Shown: one piece after another, positions 35,341-43,292 of the stretch
How positions within the stretch are numbered: position 1 is the first letter of the stretch
Layout of the letters: every line of letters begins with the position of its first letter
From: Candidatus Tepidiaquacella proteinivora
GTDB lineage: Bacteria > Bacteroidota > Ignavibacteria > Tepidaquicellales > Tepidaquicellaceae
Assembly (NCBI GenBank): GCA_013348845.1
Contig: CP054675.1
Span: 877,501 to 941,500, forward strand
DNA: 64,000 nucleotides
Reading direction: 5' to 3'
Program-made: the position numbers and the translations under genes
The notes under the pieces: generated by a model
The model's database searches: none
The model's input: the letters and a program-made list of their open reading frames with translations, nothing else
Told to the model about the DNA's origin: nothing

Positions 35341-35697
35341 TTAATTAATAACCTTCTTTACAGTCTCTACCAGTTCTTTATTTGTAAAAGGTTTCTGAAC
35401 AACTTCATTTACTCCGAAAAGACCTGTAGTTCTTTCAATGTCCTTTTTATCGAAGGCAGAAATTAGAATAACCGGCTTTGAAATATTATTTTTCTTCATT
35501 AATTCAAGTAAATCAAGCGCAGTCATTTCCCCAAGATTATAATCCATAAGTATTATATCCACTTCTCCTGAGAGAATTTTTTCCAATCCTTTTGCACCAT
35601 CATCAGCAAAAATTACATCAAAACCCTCTGTATTGAGTAACTTTGCTAACAAGAGCCGTATTATTCTGTCGTCATCTATTATTAAAACTTTTTTCAT
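35341..35697 (-). CDS. Single-domain response regulator (CheY-like)
   Basis: A 118-residue stand-alone receiver. Acidic DDD is at 8-10, the phospho-acceptor is Asp52 in ILMDYNLG, Ser/Thr is in LISAF near 78, and Lys is in VVQKPF near 101. It has no output domain, so it must act by protein contact or as a phosphorelay intermediate. It lies 59 bases downstream of a 34-residue membrane protein gene that itself follows a sigma-54 promoter; no other promoter is obvious, so I infer sigma-54-dependent expression of both. The five-PAS hybrid kinase encoded upstream is the nearest phosphodonor candidate. Confidence 0.92.
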   Translation of the reverse strand: MKKVLIIDDDRIIRLLLAKLLNTEGFDVIFADDGAKGLEKILSGEVDIILMDYNLGEMTALDLLELMKKNNISKPVILISAFDKKDIERTTGLFGVNEVVQKPFTNKELVETVKKVIN

Positions 35698-35756: not shown

Positions 35757-35861
35757 TTACGATAAAACAAATCCAGCAATGAGAAAGAGTAAGGTAATAA
35801 CGAAAATGATGATAAGGCCTTTATCAGCCTTCTTCGTATTATCTTGTGTTATTGTAGCCAT
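35757..35861 (-). CDS. Small single-pass membrane protein (34 residues), unrecognised
   Basis: The frame reads MATITQDNTKKADKG followed by a 19-residue hydrophobic helix (LIIIFVITLLFLIAGFVLS) and stop. It has a charged, soluble N-terminus of about 15 residues and one transmembrane segment that runs to the C-terminus, like a tail-anchored micropeptide. A perfect sigma-54 promoter lies upstream with a predicted start about 32 bases before the ATG. The 5' flank ends TAAGGT-ATG, so AAGG is nearly adjacent to the start codon and not ideally spaced. It is followed by a receiver gene. I recognise no family. Genuineness rests on the promoter, codon composition and the clean topology. Confidence 0.6.
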   Translation of the reverse strand: MATITQDNTKKADKGLIIIFVITLLFLIAGFVLS

Positions 35862-35904
35862 ACCTTATTTATTTTAAAGTTTTAAAATTTTCATATAAAT
35901 TTTA

Positions 35905-35920
35905 GCAATTTATGTGCCAA
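35905..35920 (-). promoter_or_regulatory. Sigma-54 (-24/-12) promoter
   Basis: On the minus strand TTGGCAC, a five-base spacer and TTGC followed by TA match the sigma-54 consensus TGGCAC-N5-TTGC exactly, with GG and GC twelve bases apart. The predicted start is near 35893, 32 bases before the small membrane-protein ATG. I scanned the window by eye for TGGCAC/TGCCA combinations and found no equally good intergenic match. Confidence 0.8.
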
Positions 35921-35985
35921 GAAATATTATAACTATATGAAAATATTTAACTTTTTTCTACTGCTTCTGTATTAAATTGAGAAAT

Positions 35986-36003
35986 CAGGTTTCATTATGA
36001 AAC
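35986..36003. promoter_or_regulatory. Palindromic candidate enhancer site for an NtrC-type activator
   Basis: GTTTCAT-T-ATGAAAC is a perfect 7+7 palindrome centred near 35996, about 103 bp upstream of the predicted sigma-54 start, the usual distance for enhancer-binding proteins. Additional TTTCA/TGAAA half sites flank it (GAGAAATC before, AATTTCAC after). The 15-mer CAGGTTTCATTATGA shares 13 of 15 bases with a site upstream of the second receiver gene. Confidence 0.5.
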
Positions 36004-36054: not shown

Positions 36055-39000
36055 TTATCTTTTATTCCCTGATAATAAATCATAAATTTCCTTTTCTACC
36101 CTTCCTTTGTAAAGGGTTTGGAGATATAACTATCACATCCACCTGAAATAAATTCTTCCATATCCCCTTTCATTGCAAATGCGGTTAAAGCAATAATAGG
36201 GATATCTTTATATTCAGGAATTTTCCTGATTTCAGTAACAACATCCATACCAGATAAACCTTTTCCTAAATTTATATCCATTAATACTAATGAATACAGA
36301 TTCTTTTTTATTTTTTCGAACGCTTCTTCCGCATTTTTTGCAACATCTATTTCGTAATTTGGTCTTAAATAATAATCGACTAAAAGAATACAGTCATCTT
36401 CATCTTCTACAAGTAATATTTTTAGTTTAGGAACATCTATTCTATACCGATCAAACGGTATTTCAAGTTTCTTTTCACTATTTATCTCTTTTACTTTAGA
36501 ACGAATTTTTGGAATTCTGACTATAAAATTCGATCCAACTCCTAATTTACTCTCTACATTTATATCTCCACCTAATAAATTTAAATATTTTCTACATAAT
36601 GTCAAACCAAGACCAGTTCCCTCAAAACTTCTACCATAGCCCTCACTTACCTGTCGGAATTCATTAAAAATTATATCGAAATATTTTTCTTCTATTCCAA
36701 TTCCAGTATCAATTACTTCAATTTTAATAAATACTCCACTTTCAATAACCTCTTCGGTTAACTTTACTGTAACCTTTCCTTTCTCAGTATAAGTTATTCC
36801 ATTACTTATAAGATTATTTAAAATATTTACAATAATATCGGGATCTGTTAAACAAGGCAGGGATTTTAGTTCTGAGTCGTATAATAATAAGAGATTTTTC
36901 TTTCTCGCTTCGGGTTGGAATAATTTTATGGTTTCATTAATTAATGATACAATATCAACATTTTTATAATTAACTGTTTTTGATTTTGCTTCAAGTAATG
37001 ATAAATCAAGAATTTGATTCAATGTATTTAAAAGTCTAATACCACTCTTATATATCACTTCTGCCATATCTTTGACAGATTTTAAATTATTCTGTTCCTG
37101 TATGAGTTCAGCGAAACCAAGTATTCCTTGTAGGGGTGTTCTCAATTCATGACTCATATTAGCAAGGAAACTGGATTTTATACGGCTCATTTCTTCTGCT
37201 TTCTCTCTTGCTGAAATTATCTCTTGCTCATATCTTTTAATGTCAGAAATATCCATTATCATACCAGTTATAACATCTCCTAACATGAAACTATTTAATA
37301 GAACAAAAATTTTCCTACCCTTTTTAGTTATAACACTTAATTCATAATTTAATATTTTCCCATTTTTTCTTATTTCATTAATAAGTTTAATTCTTTCATC
37401 TTCATTTTCATAAAAAGATTTTACATTAACTTTATATGCATCTTCTATAGAATCCAATTCAAAAATTTCACAAAAGGCTTTGTTTGCGTATAGTATATTT
37501 CCATCAATATCTGTTGTATAAATTCCGGTAAGAGAATTCTCTACTAAATTTCTATATTTTGCCTCCGATTTTTCTAACTCTTCTTCAGTTCTTTTTCTTT
37601 CTGTTATATCCCTTGCTATTCCTTCTAACGCGATAAGCTTTCCGTTTTTATCATAAATAGGAACATTCTTCTGTTCGGTATAAATAATTTTTCCATCTTT
37701 CCGAATCCAGCGAAGCACAATAGGTTTATTAAATTCATCTTTATTTTGAAAATAATTCTGTAATATATGTCTATCATCAGGATGAACAATTTTAATTCCT
37801 AATTCCGGATCTGAATAATGTTCCTCCGGAGTATAACCTGTAATTTTAGTAGCAGCAGATGAAACAAATCTGAAACCTGGTTTTGGGTAAAATTCATATC
37901 TGTAAATTATATCCTCAGTATTATCTACTAATCTTCTGAATTTCTCCTCACTTTCTCTTAAAGATTCTTTTGCCTTAATAATTTCTGTAATATCATAAAT
38001 CGAAATTACACTTTCTTTTGTATTGGGAATCATTTTCACATTTAAGACACAATTTCTTCTTTCACCTTTTTTATTAAATAGCACTGCTTCATATCTGGAG
38101 GGAACTTTTTCAGGTGATATTCGCCTCATTTTATGATAATTCAACATCATTTCAATACTTTCTTCTGAAACATAATCTGTCCACTTAGTTCCGATTATCT
38201 CCTCAGGTTTATATCCGGTTACTGAATATGCTTCGTTATTTGCTAAAACAATGGTATTATCTTCTTCTACAATAATAGTTAAAGAACCAGTATTTTCAAA
38301 AATCGTTTTATATCGCTCTTCACTCTTAATTAATTCTGCTTCGATTTTTTTCCTTTTCGAAATATCTCTTACAACAGAATAGAAGTATTGTTTATTTTTA
38401 ATATTAATTTTAAATAACAAAACCTCACACGGGAAATTTGTTCCATCTGACTTTTTATGTATCCATTCAAAGAAGTTATAACCATCTTTAAGTGCTTTTT
38501 TAATCATCATTTTTGCCTTATTCTCAGATGATAGACCATCAGGTTGTATATCTGGTGAAACTTCCCAGGGTTGCTTTCCTATAATATCTGTTTTATTTTT
38601 ATAACCAAAAATTCTTAAAGTAGCATTATTACAGTCCTGAAAGCCTTCGGTTGTTAATAATAATATTGAATCAAAAGATTCCTCAAATAATTTTCTGAAA
38701 GTTTCTTCACTTTCTTTTAATAATTCTTCTGTTTTTCTCTTTTCAGTTAAATCATTAAAAAATGCTAAAATGAATTTCCCTTCCTCAGTTACAACTAAAT
38801 TATATGACAATTCAATAACTAATCGTTTCCCGTTTGATAAAGTCAATATTCTTTCCGATTTTTGATGCGATAACCCCTTTTTAATAAAATTTCTGTAATA
38901 ATTTAATGCTTCTTTTCTATTTTCAGGTGAGTAAAGGGTTTCAAATGATTTCCCTATTATATCTTCTTTTTTAACCCCGAGAAAATTACAGTATTCATCA

Positions 39001-39086
39001 TTTACGATTAAAATTTTACCATCAAAATCAGTAACTCTTAATGGAAAATTACATAGATTTAAAGTTTTTTCATAAATATTTTCCAT
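36055..39086 (-). CDS. Five-PAS hybrid sensor histidine kinase with frameshifted receiver tail
   Basis: The uninterrupted frame (36096-39086) gives 996 residues with no membrane segment: five PAS domains (about 5-118, 125-248, 253-372, 380-500, 508-620), phospho-acceptor His646 in ANMSHELRTPLQG, an ATP-binding domain (about 750-870, with GTGLGLTL) and a C-terminal receiver with Asp937 in LMDINLGKG and Lys990 in SKPF. The frame stops at TAG (36096) immediately after KPFTKEG, before the last receiver helix. In the -1 frame the sequence continues VEKEIYDLLSGNKR to a stop at 36055-36057, exactly the missing helix. I give the full span; one G is probably missing from a G-run at 36099-36101. Confidence 0.88.
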
Positions 39087-39408: not shown

Positions 39409-39482
39409 GGCGGGTATAGCTCAGCAGGTAGAGCGTCAGATTGTGGCTCTGAATGTCGTGGGTTCGAGCCCCACTACTCGCC
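39409..39482 (+). tRNA. tRNA-His(GTG)
   Basis: A full cloverleaf on the plus strand. Acceptor GCGGGTA pairs with TACTCGC, D-arm AGCTCAGCAGGTAGAGC, anticodon stem TCAGA/TCTGA enclosing TTGTGGC (anticodon GTG), T-arm GTGGGTTCGAGCCCCAC. An extra G at 39409 can pair with C at 39482, the G-1:C73 pair that identifies tRNA-His. CCA is not encoded. Confidence 0.95.
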
Positions 39483-39551
39483 CAAAGGAAAGAAAAACTT
39501 GTCAAATTATTTTATTCTTAAAATCCTTGTGGGGCTAAAGAGTATGAATAA

Positions 39552-39788
39552 TTATTTTCTTTTACCTACCCTTAAAATTGTTATCTCTTCTTTGTAAACA
39601 GTAAATATTACTCTAAACAGTCCAACCTTCATACGACGCAACCCTTTGTAATTCCCTTTCAATTCCGGATAATAAAATGGGTCGAGAATAAGTTTATTTT
39701 CTATTTTGTCTAATATCTCTTTAACTTTTTCTTCCTGAAAATTTTTTAAATCCTCAACTACCTCACTATGAAATGATATTTTAAACAT
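39552..39788 (-). CDS. RelE/ParE-family toxin
   Basis: A 78-residue protein with the RelE/ParE fold pattern: ISFHSEVVEDLKNFQEEKVKEILDKIENKL (two helices), LKGNYKGLRRMKVGLFRVIFTVYKEEITILRVGKR (the C-terminal sheet with the basic RVIF and KR residues of ribosome-dependent RNases). It overlaps the upstream antitoxin gene by 8 bases, the usual coupling of type II modules. It lies 69 bases beyond tRNA-His, on the opposite strand. Members of this family either cleave mRNA or inhibit gyrase; the sequence alone does not decide. Confidence 0.85.
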   Translation of the reverse strand: MFKISFHSEVVEDLKNFQEEKVKEILDKIENKLILDPFYYPELKGNYKGLRRMKVGLFRVIFTVYKEEITILRVGKRK

Positions 39789-40002
39789 TGAATCTTTTTT
39801 TAAATTCTCTTACTGATATTTTTTCGTTAGTAATATTCTTTCTTCTTCGGGTTGCATACTCAAAGTCTTTATAGTCCTCAATATAATTAGAAATTGCTTT
39901 CTTTAAATGATAAATAATAGGAAGTCCGGTTTCCCTTGATATTTTATCTAATCCTTCAAAAAATTTCCTTGGAATTCGATTTATTAAACCAGGTTTAAAC
40001 AT
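39781..40002 (-). CDS. Antitoxin of the RelE/ParE module (ribbon-helix-helix-like)
   Basis: A 73-residue basic protein, MFKPGLINRIPRKFFEGLDKISRETGLPIIYHLKKAISNYIEDYKDF, that resembles a ribbon-helix-helix/CopG-type DNA-binding head (strand, then two helices) followed by a basic tail (ATRRRKNITNEKISVREFKKRFNV) that would wrap the toxin. It precedes and overlaps the toxin gene. Such antitoxins autoregulate their operon. The promoter is not obvious; a short CATATATG palindrome lies near 40058-40065. Confidence 0.75.
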   Translation of the reverse strand: MFKPGLINRIPRKFFEGLDKISRETGLPIIYHLKKAISNYIEDYKDFEYATRRRKNITNEKISVREFKKRFNV

Positions 40003-40285: not shown

Positions 40286-40642
40286 TTAATTTGAAGACAA
40301 TGTATTTGAAACAAATTTATTCAGCTTAAAGATATCAATCGGCTTTTTCATCACAGCTATAACTTTATCATGAAATTTACTATTTATTTCATAAGCAGTA
40401 ATAAAGATAATAGGTTTTTTTATCTTTTTCCCATTCAACACATAAAATAATTCCTCACCTCCAAGTTTTGGCATTTTCAAATCACAAATTATCAAATCGG
40501 GTGAAATTCTTTTCATAATTTCCAATGCATCAACACCATCTTTGGCAACACAAACTTTATACCCTTCATCCTCAAAATATGATTTTAACGACTCTCTCGA
40601 TGATTTATCGTCATCAACAATTAAAATTTTATTCTTTTTCAT
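40286..40642 (-). CDS. Single-domain response regulator (CheY-like)
   Basis: A 118-residue receiver: acidic DDD at 9-11, phospho-acceptor Asp in LIICDLKMP near 54, threonine in IFITAYE near 82, and Lys in VMKKPID near 101. There is no output domain. A sigma-54-like site (GG-N10-GC with TTTTTGCTA) sits just upstream and an intrinsic terminator follows, so it is a single-gene unit. It resembles the receiver at 35341-35697 in size and context but is not a close duplicate. The sigma-54 activator NtrC-type gene ends 112 bases upstream. Confidence 0.9.
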   Translation of the reverse strand: MKKNKILIVDDDKSSRESLKSYFEDEGYKVCVAKDGVDALEIMKRISPDLIICDLKMPKLGGEELFYVLNGKKIKKPIIFITAYEINSKFHDKVIAVMKKPIDIFKLNKFVSNTLSSN

Positions 40643-40655
40643 ACGCTAAACGGTA

Positions 40656-40670
40656 GCAAAAATCATACCT
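40656..40670 (-). promoter_or_regulatory. Sigma-54-like promoter (weaker match)
   Basis: On the minus strand GG (40669-40668) and GC (40657-40656) are twelve bases apart and the -12 element reads TTTTTGCTA, all as in sigma-54 promoters. The -24 element is AGGTATG rather than TGGCACG. The predicted start is near 40644, two bases before the receiver ATG, so the message would be leaderless. Moderate confidence only. Confidence 0.45.
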
Positions 40671-40722
40671 TAAAAATTAATACTTTAATTATTTATAAAA
40701 TATTAAAATTTAAGATTTTATC

Positions 40723-40737
40723 TCAAAATGAAACCAG
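40723..40737 (-). promoter_or_regulatory. Shared motif, candidate activator site
   Basis: On the minus strand this reads CTGGTTTCATTTTGA, 13 of 15 identical to the motif at 35986-36000 upstream of the other receiver. It is centred about 86 bp upstream of the predicted start at 40644, the usual position of an NtrC-type enhancer. Here the second half of the palindrome is degraded. Confidence 0.45.
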
Positions 40738-40753: not shown

Positions 40754-42109
40754 TTAAGATTCCCTTTTAAACTTATAACAATCTATTTTTCTATATAGTG
40801 TAGCTTTGCTAATTCCCAGTATATCACATACTTTTTTAATATTCCAATTCTCTTTTTCAAGAATAGCCTTTATATGTGCCTTTTCAAGTTCTTCTATTGT
40901 TATATTTGAGCCAATTTTTAATTCTTTTGATTCTTTTAAAGGTTCTGTTTTCAGTAATAAATTTTCTTTCTCCAATACATCTCCTTTAGAAAGTACAATC
41001 CCTTGCATAAGTACATTTTCAAGTTCCCTTACATTCCCCTTCCAGTCGTGGTTTTTCAACATATCCATAACATCACGAGGCACTTTTCTGACATTTTTAT
41101 GCAAAATAAAATTAATTTTCTTTAATAAGTGCTTCACAAGAACTTCAATATCCTCTTTACGCTCTCTCAATGGTGGTGAATAAATTGTAAACACATTTAA
41201 CCTATAAAACAGGTCTTCCCTGAATTTTCCTTCCTGAACGAGTTTATATAAATCTTTATTTGTAGATGCAATAACACGAGCCTTCATCTGGATGCTATTT
41301 TCTCCTCCGACTCTTTCAAAAACAAATTCTTGCAGAACTCTTAATAATTTTGCTTGCAAATTTAAAGACATTTCAGAAATTTCATCAAGAAATACTGTTC
41401 CTTCACCAGCTAATTCAAATTTTCCTCTTTTATCTTTAATAGCGTCAGTAAAAGCGCCTTTAACATGGCCAAACAATTCACTCTCAAGTAAATTTTCTGG
41501 TAAAGCTGTACAATTGATTGCAACGAATGGATAATTTCTTGTTATTCCGGAATTATGAATAATTTTAGCTATTAGTTCCTTACCAGTCCCGCTTTCACCC
41601 TGGATTAATACAGTCACTCTTGTAGATGATGCTTGTCCGATTTTTTTGTAAATTTCTCTAATACTATTAGATTTACCGACTAAAGTATTGAAAAGTTCAT
41701 ATTCAGTATCATCTTTGGGGGTTAAAGATTCAAGCTTCTGACTTAATTCTTTATTTTCAAGTGCTCTTATGATAGTGTGTTTCAATCTAACAGTGTCTAT
41801 AGGTTTAACTATATAATCGTAAGCCCCTCTCTGCATTGCTGATATTGTTGAATTCATATCTTCAATGGCTGTTACCATAATAACTTGAATTAGTTCATCA
41901 TGCTCTCTTATCCTTTTTAATACATCAAGACCATTAATATCAGGCATATTAATGTCACAAAGCACAAGATCAGGATTTAATCTCCTTGTCATATCTAATC
42001 CTTTAGTTCCGGATTCCGCTTCGTATGTTTCAAAGCCCTCTTCTTTTAAAAGTAAACTCAATGAAACTCTTGCTGACTCATCATCGTCAATTATCAGAAT
42101 TTTTTTCAT
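40754..42109 (-). CDS. NtrC-family sigma-54-dependent response regulator
   Basis: A 451-residue transcription activator. Receiver 1-120 with Asp52 in LVLCDINMP and Lys102; AAA+ domain about 140-375 with Walker A GESGTGKE (171-178), sigma-54-contact loop GAFTDA at 219-224 (D replaces the usual second G), Walker B VFLDEIS near 239, and GERVGGE-type sensor segments; C-terminal Fis-type helix-turn-helix KKVCDILGISKATLYRKI. It hydrolyses ATP to open sigma-54 promoters after phosphorylation. It overlaps the upstream kinase gene by 23 bases, so it is that kinase's partner. It is the only sigma-54 activator in the window. Confidence 0.95.
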   Translation of the reverse strand: MKKILIIDDDESARVSLSLLLKEEGFETYEAESGTKGLDMTRRLNPDLVLCDINMPDINGLDVLKRIREHDELIQVIMVTAIEDMNSTISAMQRGAYDYIVKPIDTVRLKHTIIRALENKELSQKLESLTPKDDTEYELFNTLVGKSNSIREIYKKIGQASSTRVTVLIQGESGTGKELIAKIIHNSGITRNYPFVAINCTALPENLLESELFGHVKGAFTDAIKDKRGKFELAGEGTVFLDEISEMSLNLQAKLLRVLQEFVFERVGGENSIQMKARVIASTNKDLYKLVQEGKFREDLFYRLNVFTIYSPPLRERKEDIEVLVKHLLKKINFILHKNVRKVPRDVMDMLKNHDWKGNVRELENVLMQGIVLSKGDVLEKENLLLKTEPLKESKELKIGSNITIEELEKAHIKAILEKENWNIKKVCDILGISKATLYRKIDCYKFKRES

Positions 42110-43292
42110 TTTTATTTTTTTTATTTAATGGAAGGGTTATAAGAAAAATTGTTTCCCCCGGCTTTGAAGTAACCAATTCAAGTTTACCATCATGATGTTC
42201 AATAATTTTCTGAGAAAGTGCTAATCCAATTCCTGTTCCGGATTCTTTTGTAGTATAAAAGGGTTCAAAAATTTTTTCCGGATGCTCCACACCATACCCA
42301 TTATCTTTAAAATATATATTAATTTTGTTTCTTATTTTTTCGGTTTTAATTTCAATTACTCCTTTATCCGGCATTGCTTCAAATGCATTATAAATTAGAT
42401 TAAGAAAAACTTGTTTTAACTTTTCCATATCAGCACTTACTATGATATCATCTGAAAAATTTCGTATGACCACACCTTTGCTATTAATATCAGGATTAAT
42501 CTGTTGTATTATTTGTTCAATAAAATTCTTAATATTAAAATCACTTTTATAAAGTACAATATTCTTAGAAAACTGTAATACTTCCCTGACCAGATTTTCT
42601 AACCGATTTATTTCTGTTTGAATTATCTGAATTCTTTTTTTATTAATTTCAGTCAACCCTTCAACACAGGAAAGCACATCAGTATTAATTTTTATTGAAT
42701 TTAACGGATTTCTGATTTCATGAGCAAGTATTGCCGCCATTTTCCCTATTGTTGCCAGTCTTTCCGCTTTTTTCAGTTCCTCTTCTGCAAGTTTTCTCTG
42801 CTTAATTTCTTTTTGCAATCGTACATTTTTCTTAACTAATTCTGCTGTTCGTTGTTTAACTTTCTCTTCAAGTTCGTCATTTGCTTTTTTTAATGTTTCA
42901 AGTATTTCCTTATTATGTAAAAATTGTTTCTGTAATGTTATTTCGATAGTTGTAACTAAAATCTTTTCATTAACAGGTTTAATTAAATAACCAAAAGGTC
43001 CTGTTATTTTTGCTCTCTTTATCGTTTCTTCTGAAGAATCCGCTGTTAAATATATTATTGGAATATTATATTTATCTTTTATCTTGTGAGCAATCTCAAT
43101 CCCATCTAATTCACCTTCTAAAGTTATATCCATTAAAATAATATCAGGGGTATTTTTATTAATTGATTCTATAACCTCATTGGATTTCATAACAATATCA
43201 GTAATAACAAATCCCCTATTTGTTAACATCTTACTTATTATTTTTGCAGTTAATAAATCATCTTCAACAATTAATATTTTTTCCCTGCTCAT
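42087..43292 (-). CDS. Hybrid receiver-histidine kinase (partner of the NtrC-type regulator)
   Basis: A 401-residue soluble protein. An N-terminal receiver (1-120, Asp55 in ILMDITLEG, Lys in LIKPVN) is followed by a coiled coil (about 125-185) and the kinase core: His191 in ILAHEIRNPLNSI, N-box LNLIYNAFEAM, G1 DNGYGVE and G2 ESGTGIGLALS. The lack of sensor and membrane domains implies that input arrives by phosphorylation or protein contact at the receiver. Its 3' end overlaps the NtrC-type gene. A phosphorelay from one of the nearby single-domain receivers or PAS kinase to this protein and on to the activator is plausible. Confidence 0.92.
   Translation of the reverse strand: MSREKILIVEDDLLTAKIISKMLTNRGFVITDIVMKSNEVIESINKNTPDIILMDITLEGELDGIEIAHKIKDKYNIPIIYLTADSSEETIKRAKITGPFGYLIKPVNEKILVTTIEITLQKQFLHNKEILETLKKANDELEEKVKQRTAELVKKNVRLQKEIKQRKLAEEELKKAERLATIGKMAAILAHEIRNPLNSIKINTDVLSCVEGLTEINKKRIQIIQTEINRLENLVREVLQFSKNIVLYKSDFNIKNFIEQIIQQINPDINSKGVVIRNFSDDIIVSADMEKLKQVFLNLIYNAFEAMPDKGVIEIKTEKIRNKINIYFKDNGYGVEHPEKIFEPFYTTKESGTGIGLALSQKIIEHHDGKLELVTSKPGETIFLITLPLNKKNKNEKNSDN

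Follow-up and report, generated by a model that had tools for sequence, protein, structure and literature searches.

Genes and regulatory features of the locus

The window analysed here, a stretch of DNA of 64,000 nucleotides, holds on its minus strand a very short gene followed by a stand-alone receiver, together with a predicted sigma-54 promoter, putative activator sites and the genes of an NtrC-type two-component system:

35341..35697, minus: 118-aa stand-alone receiver, RR1, predicted to follow the micropeptide as second gene of its operon (Response_reg in Pfam; L021 and L038 keep this gene order)
35757..35861, minus: 34-aa micropeptide, predicted single-helix membrane protein (purifying selection; family; predicted helix)
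35905..35920, minus: predicted sigma-54 -24/-12 promoter, TTGGCACATAAATTGC (pattern search; box conserved in relatives)
35970..35982, minus: second, half-conserved putative activator site, TCTCAATTTAATA, about 20 nt 3' of the first
35990..36002, minus: putative upstream activator palindrome, TTTCATAATGAAA, about 70 nt 5' of the box (aligned in four relatives)
36096..39086, minus: 996-aa hybrid histidine kinase with multiple PAS domains, just 5' of the micropeptide promoter (adjacent also in G002)
40286..40642, minus: stand-alone receiver RR2, 118 aa, whose clade is the usual micropeptide partner in other genera
40656..40671, minus: sigma-54-like box of the second receiver operon, AAGGTATGATTTTTGC
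40721..40733, minus: putative activator palindrome, TTTCATTTTGAGA, immediately 3' of the activator gene
40754..42109, minus: NtrC-type activator with receiver, AAA+ sigma-54 domain and Fis HTH; the micropeptide promoter is probably under its control
42087..43292, minus: soluble receiver-histidine kinase without a transmembrane segment, immediately 5' of the activator gene

The product of the frame at 35861-35757, MATITQDNTKKADKGLIIIFVITLLFLIAGFVLS, has a basic N-terminus and a peak hydropathy of 3.1 over a 19-residue span, and is modelled by AlphaFold as one helix comprising residues 3-33 (pLDDT 82), which agrees with the charged N-terminus and single hydrophobic helix described in an earlier, sequence-only reading of this DNA. 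According to the positive-inside rule, a basic flank stays on the cytosolic side, and the basic N-terminus suggests an N-in topology.

The micropeptide is under strong purifying selection. Between G000 and its nearest relative, G002, pS in this frame is 0.84, with synonymous sites saturated, and pN is 0.12; this contrast is by far the strongest found, the only other one being weak and in an antisense frame (pS 0.54, pN 0.22). The gene order in G002 is kinase, box, 34-aa frame (85% identical), receiver, and TonB-dependent receptor. In G001, a divergent copy keeps its place before the receiver and the receptor, and a second copy stands alone. Judging by these patterns, the 34-aa frame is almost certainly a real gene.

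The predicted sigma-54 promoter

The sigma-54 box upstream of the frame is TTGGCAC-ATAAA-TTGC, at 35920-35905 (-), an exact copy of TTGGCAC-N5-TTGC, as had been claimed before. Exact copies of this box are expected 0.012 times per window and 0.45 times per genome under a first-order Markov model; the 2.4 Mb genome contains two. Up to one mismatch yields 19 sites, versus 3 for the reversed control pattern; with two mismatches allowed, the 19 box matches are at chance level (20.6), so that only a near-perfect match is informative by itself. The start predicted for sigma-54, at 35893, lies 12 nt past the GC of the -12 element and 32 nt 5' of the ATG; the earlier reading had proposed a start near the same position. 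In the alignment with relatives, GGCA-N6-TTGC is retained in the G002 promoter. The genome to which the window belongs encodes rpoN as well as six high-scoring sigma-54 activator domains. The micropeptide promoter is, on these grounds, very probably of the sigma-54/activator type. Sigma-70-like promoters near the frame are disfavoured, as only weak matches (9/12) were obtained. A literature search for sigma-54 or RpoN combined with Ignavibacteria found nothing.

The other exact TTGGCAC-N5-TTGC box of the genome (L002, at G000:C1:1955560-1955575) drives expression of a 406-aa protein with two receivers, next to another sigma-54 activator, and the search for the TCTCA palindrome listed no site near it.

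A family of micropeptides in one branch of Ignavibacteria

A profile built from 21 copies retrieved 38 copies in 13 genomes, all from one taxonomic family of Ignavibacteria, and this profile search gave no convincing copy in the rest of the 294 genomes of the class, nor in 395 genomes of the phylum. The alignment is nearly ungapped from a conserved Asp, replaced by Glu or Asn in distant copies, to a Gly 17 residues further on, with the C-terminus a few residues later. Searches against Pfam and NCBIfam returned only sub-threshold matches to the micropeptides and no family covering them. By their sequences, they are an undescribed family of apparent tiny membrane proteins, restricted to one branch of Ignavibacteria.

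Since searches with the single 34-aa peptide return mostly chance matches in long frames, matches were retained only when a short frame, a box and the neighbouring genes were all present; weak class-level matches in f4, f19 and f22 were parts of long frames or of frames containing stops, and were dropped. At L230, a 34-aa hydrophobic frame, unrelated-looking and with a weak profile match (E=0.006), comes right after a relative of the activator.

Other genera of the taxonomic family hold further copies, either before receivers or alone. A strong box lies 34-109 nt 5' of the first ATG in 25 of 29 micropeptide loci (26 counting L264, whose start is uncertain), compared with a background of 0.5% per 20-nt slot. 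Several loci are tandem pairs, and in L151 (G009:C46:21571-22244) five near-identical micropeptide genes stand in tandem behind one enhancer-sigma-54 promoter.

Stand-alone receivers as recurrent partners

As the sequence-only reading had it, the short frame is followed by a single-domain response regulator: RR1, at 35697-35341, begins 59 nt after the frame and consists of a single Response_reg domain (Pfam, E=4e-22). Both genes are likely to share one transcript. The earlier reading had also proposed co-expression of the micropeptide with a receiver, and had made the small frame depend on its conservation in relatives; frame, box and receiver do recur together in several genera, which makes the predicted micropeptide-receiver co-expression a recurrent arrangement.

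The receiver is not obligatory, however. While a stand-alone receiver begins no more than 200 nt further on in 17 of the 29 loci, about 12 have no adjoining one (two of these are cut by contig ends), and some activator-linked receivers have no micropeptide. In the receiver tree, the partner belongs to the RR2 clade in other genera and is RR1, from a different clade, in this genus, where RR2 follows the activator without a micropeptide. The micropeptide is thus repeatedly paired with a receiver, though not always with the same one, and an interface for binding would need to have changed in this genus; a micropeptide needing one specific receiver was discarded for this reason.

RR2 itself comes immediately after the activator gene, with the palindrome found before the micropeptide and a sigma-54-like box in front of it (40286-40733, minus strand). 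Its predicted start falls about 2 nt 5' of the ATG, so its transcript would be nearly leaderless. Between the tRNA-His gene (39410-39483) and RR2 there is a ParE-like toxin with a candidate ribbon-helix-helix antitoxin (39552-40002, minus strand).

The putative activator, its sites and its regulon

Beyond the features described in the earlier reading, the analysis adds the enhancer palindrome, the second half-site, the activator and a regulon of exported proteins. The aligned palindrome 5' of the box is TTTCATAATGAAA in the window and TCTCATTTTGAGA in relatives. Searching 44 genomes of the order for CTCA-N3-TGARA followed at 43-73 nt by TGGYAY-N5-TTG gave about 95 matches and none for the reversed control; the pattern was built from promoters of a few genomes, which are not independent, but the large majority of the matches are. 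The distances between site and box in the 81 distinct promoters cluster at 50-52, 60-62 and 69-72 nt and are helically phased (Rayleigh p ~1e-26). This genome holds five promoters with coherent spacing: that of the micropeptide operon, that of RR2, and those of three proteins that are exported or belong to the envelope. Promoters built in this way, one to four in each genome, are also found in G172, G224 (f22), G219, G137 (f10) and G211 (f4), suggesting an older or wider activator regulon; the micropeptide is absent from those families of the class that have such sparse sites outside the micropeptide-bearing one.

The activator at 40754-42109 is a likely regulator of the micropeptide promoter. 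Its orthologues occur in 12 of the 44 genomes of the order, all 12 with the micropeptide and enhancer-sigma-54 promoters. Of the remaining 32, only G004 (77% complete) carries the micropeptide, and a lone matching site occurs in three. The co-occurrence is strong for both the micropeptide (Fisher 6e-10) and the enhancer sites (2e-8), although these statistics ignore shared ancestry, which accounts for part of it. The gene that comes next after the activator is the micropeptide in six genomes, and a palindrome lies directly 3' of the activator gene in the window and in five relatives. From this co-occurrence and adjacency, the activator may bind TCTCA-N3-TGAGA. Its relatives in other lineages (about 61% identity) adjoin efflux genes instead, making the link between activator and micropeptide specific to this clade; at L229 and L230 (61% identity) these neighbours are TolC/Cus-type efflux genes.

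With regard to the regulon, 12 of the 81 enhancer promoters are followed within 260 nt by a one-helix frame of 26-48 aa, compared with 0.4% of control windows, and 11 of these 12 frames belong to the micropeptide family. The other promoters mostly drive proteins with export signals. A type IX sorting domain was found in five of the ten targets scanned, one of them also Omp28-like, and the remaining scanned targets include PAP2 phosphatase and metallophosphoesterase proteins. Stand-alone receivers, including RR2, are targets as well. At the sequence level, there is good support for the gene, for its promoter and for its regulon.

Proposed mechanism and alternative explanations

The locus would be an operon under sigma-54 that belongs to an NtrC-type two-component system, in which the soluble receiver-kinase (42087-43292) feeds the activator. 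The latter would bind TYTCA-N3-TGARA, 50-70 bp 5' of the -24/-12 boxes, and induce stand-alone receivers, one-helix micropeptides of 30-40 aa, and exported proteins, many of which bear type IX sorting domains. The 996-aa hybrid kinase is a possible input to the relay. With its N-terminus predicted in the cytosol, the single helix of the micropeptide would place an acidic residue at the inner face of the membrane. No membrane segment is predicted in the two kinases of the window (36096-39086 and 42087-43292), so that a micropeptide made together with a receiver could recruit a soluble relay component to the membrane or exert feedback on that component. Co-expressed with the receiver, it would act back on the phosphorelay, either by modulating the receiver or kinase or by anchoring one of them at the membrane, and would thereby provide the regulon with an envelope-linked feedback.

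Taken as a whole, an NtrC-type sigma-54 circuit with feedback or tethering by the micropeptide is the best explanation, although a tentative one that falls somewhat short of even chances. The usual position of the family, before a stand-alone receiver and next to the activator, makes it probable that the micropeptide takes part in the feedback or membrane-anchoring step of the circuit; that it feeds back on, or tethers, the kinase/receiver/activator phosphorelay is the most likely role, likewise at somewhat less than even chances. A role as regulator of a membrane-linked signal, suggested by the earlier reading, is plausible. Against it counts that the adjoining kinase is soluble, the receiver optional and the partner clade changed in this genus. 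A more elaborate version, in which micropeptides recruit stand-alone receivers, and thereby the NtrC-type circuit, to the membrane, linking the type IX exoprotein output to the state of the envelope with a strength tuned by copy number (one to five in tandem), is speculative and rather unlikely.

Close behind the feedback explanation comes that of an envelope effector made together with the exported proteins, which would stabilise the membrane or help export, like PspB/PspG or a secretion accessory, the receiver being an unrelated co-regulated feedback gene. This possibility, to which a probability of about one in three is given, owes its rank to the many copies found alone, in pairs or in the five-copy array, which suit a dosage-dependent membrane component over a stoichiometric regulator, and to the exported or envelope nature of most other regulon members. 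However, a receiver follows in more than half of the loci, the activator gene adjoins the micropeptide in six genomes, and type IX secretion is far wider than a family confined to 13 genomes. Small hydrophobic toxins also resemble the micropeptide in size, hydrophobicity and tandem duplication, but a type I-like toxin under activator control is improbable, given that many copies lie between a regulated promoter and a receiver, that the Asp is conserved, and that a sigma-54 promoter and linkage to an activator would be atypical. Finally, the frame is very short and lies within the leader of the receiver, as would a translated leader or chance ORF in front of a receiver that alone matters. This explanation is the most improbable of all, and was rejected on selection and homology: the residues are under purifying selection, the homologous family occurs with and without a receiver, and micro-ORFs are enriched behind the enhancer promoters (12/81 versus 0.4%).

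Relation to known systems and significance

In a few model bacteria, two-component systems are known to be tuned by small membrane proteins, most of which act on transmembrane sensors. Among the functional precedents, which are not relatives, MgrB (47 aa) of the PhoQ/PhoP system is a small single-helix membrane protein that inhibits a transmembrane sensor (PMC8404706). The micropeptide likewise appears to be a small single-helix membrane protein from a two-component regulon; however, no sequence relation to MgrB was found (Pfam, NCBIfam), it has a predicted sigma-54/activator promoter and a gene paired with a receiver, and both kinases of the window lack a membrane segment. Prli42 of Listeria is a membrane miniprotein that tethers the stressosome to the membrane (PMC9840623), and by analogy could serve as a model for the anchoring of a soluble signalling complex. 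It differs in serving the SigB stressosome of Firmicutes, while the micropeptide, with no NCBIfam or Pfam match, would serve a sigma-54 phosphorelay in Ignavibacteria.

The phage-shock genes under PspF and sigma-54 encode small inner-membrane proteins (PspB, PspG), and the micropeptide appears to share this type of control, but no Psp family was matched, the activator is of the receiver-bearing NtrC type, and the regulon comprises exported proteins and receivers. NtrC-family regulons offer the same receiver-AAA+-Fis activator, palindromic sites in helical register and -24/-12 boxes, with the difference that the targets here comprise micropeptides and receivers along with proteins that are exported or type IX cargo. 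Neither Ignavibacteria nor type IX secretion is mentioned in a recent survey of sigma-54 regulons (PMC12316311).

Comparative genomics thus leads to a micropeptide family for which no curated model exists. In a phylum that has received little study, this family is linked to a soluble phosphorelay as well as to exported proteins that form a sigma-54 regulon. The definition of an activator, a DNA site and a gene set makes the role of the micropeptide directly testable, and the results suggest that searches downstream of enhancer-type promoters are a fruitful way of finding micropeptides.
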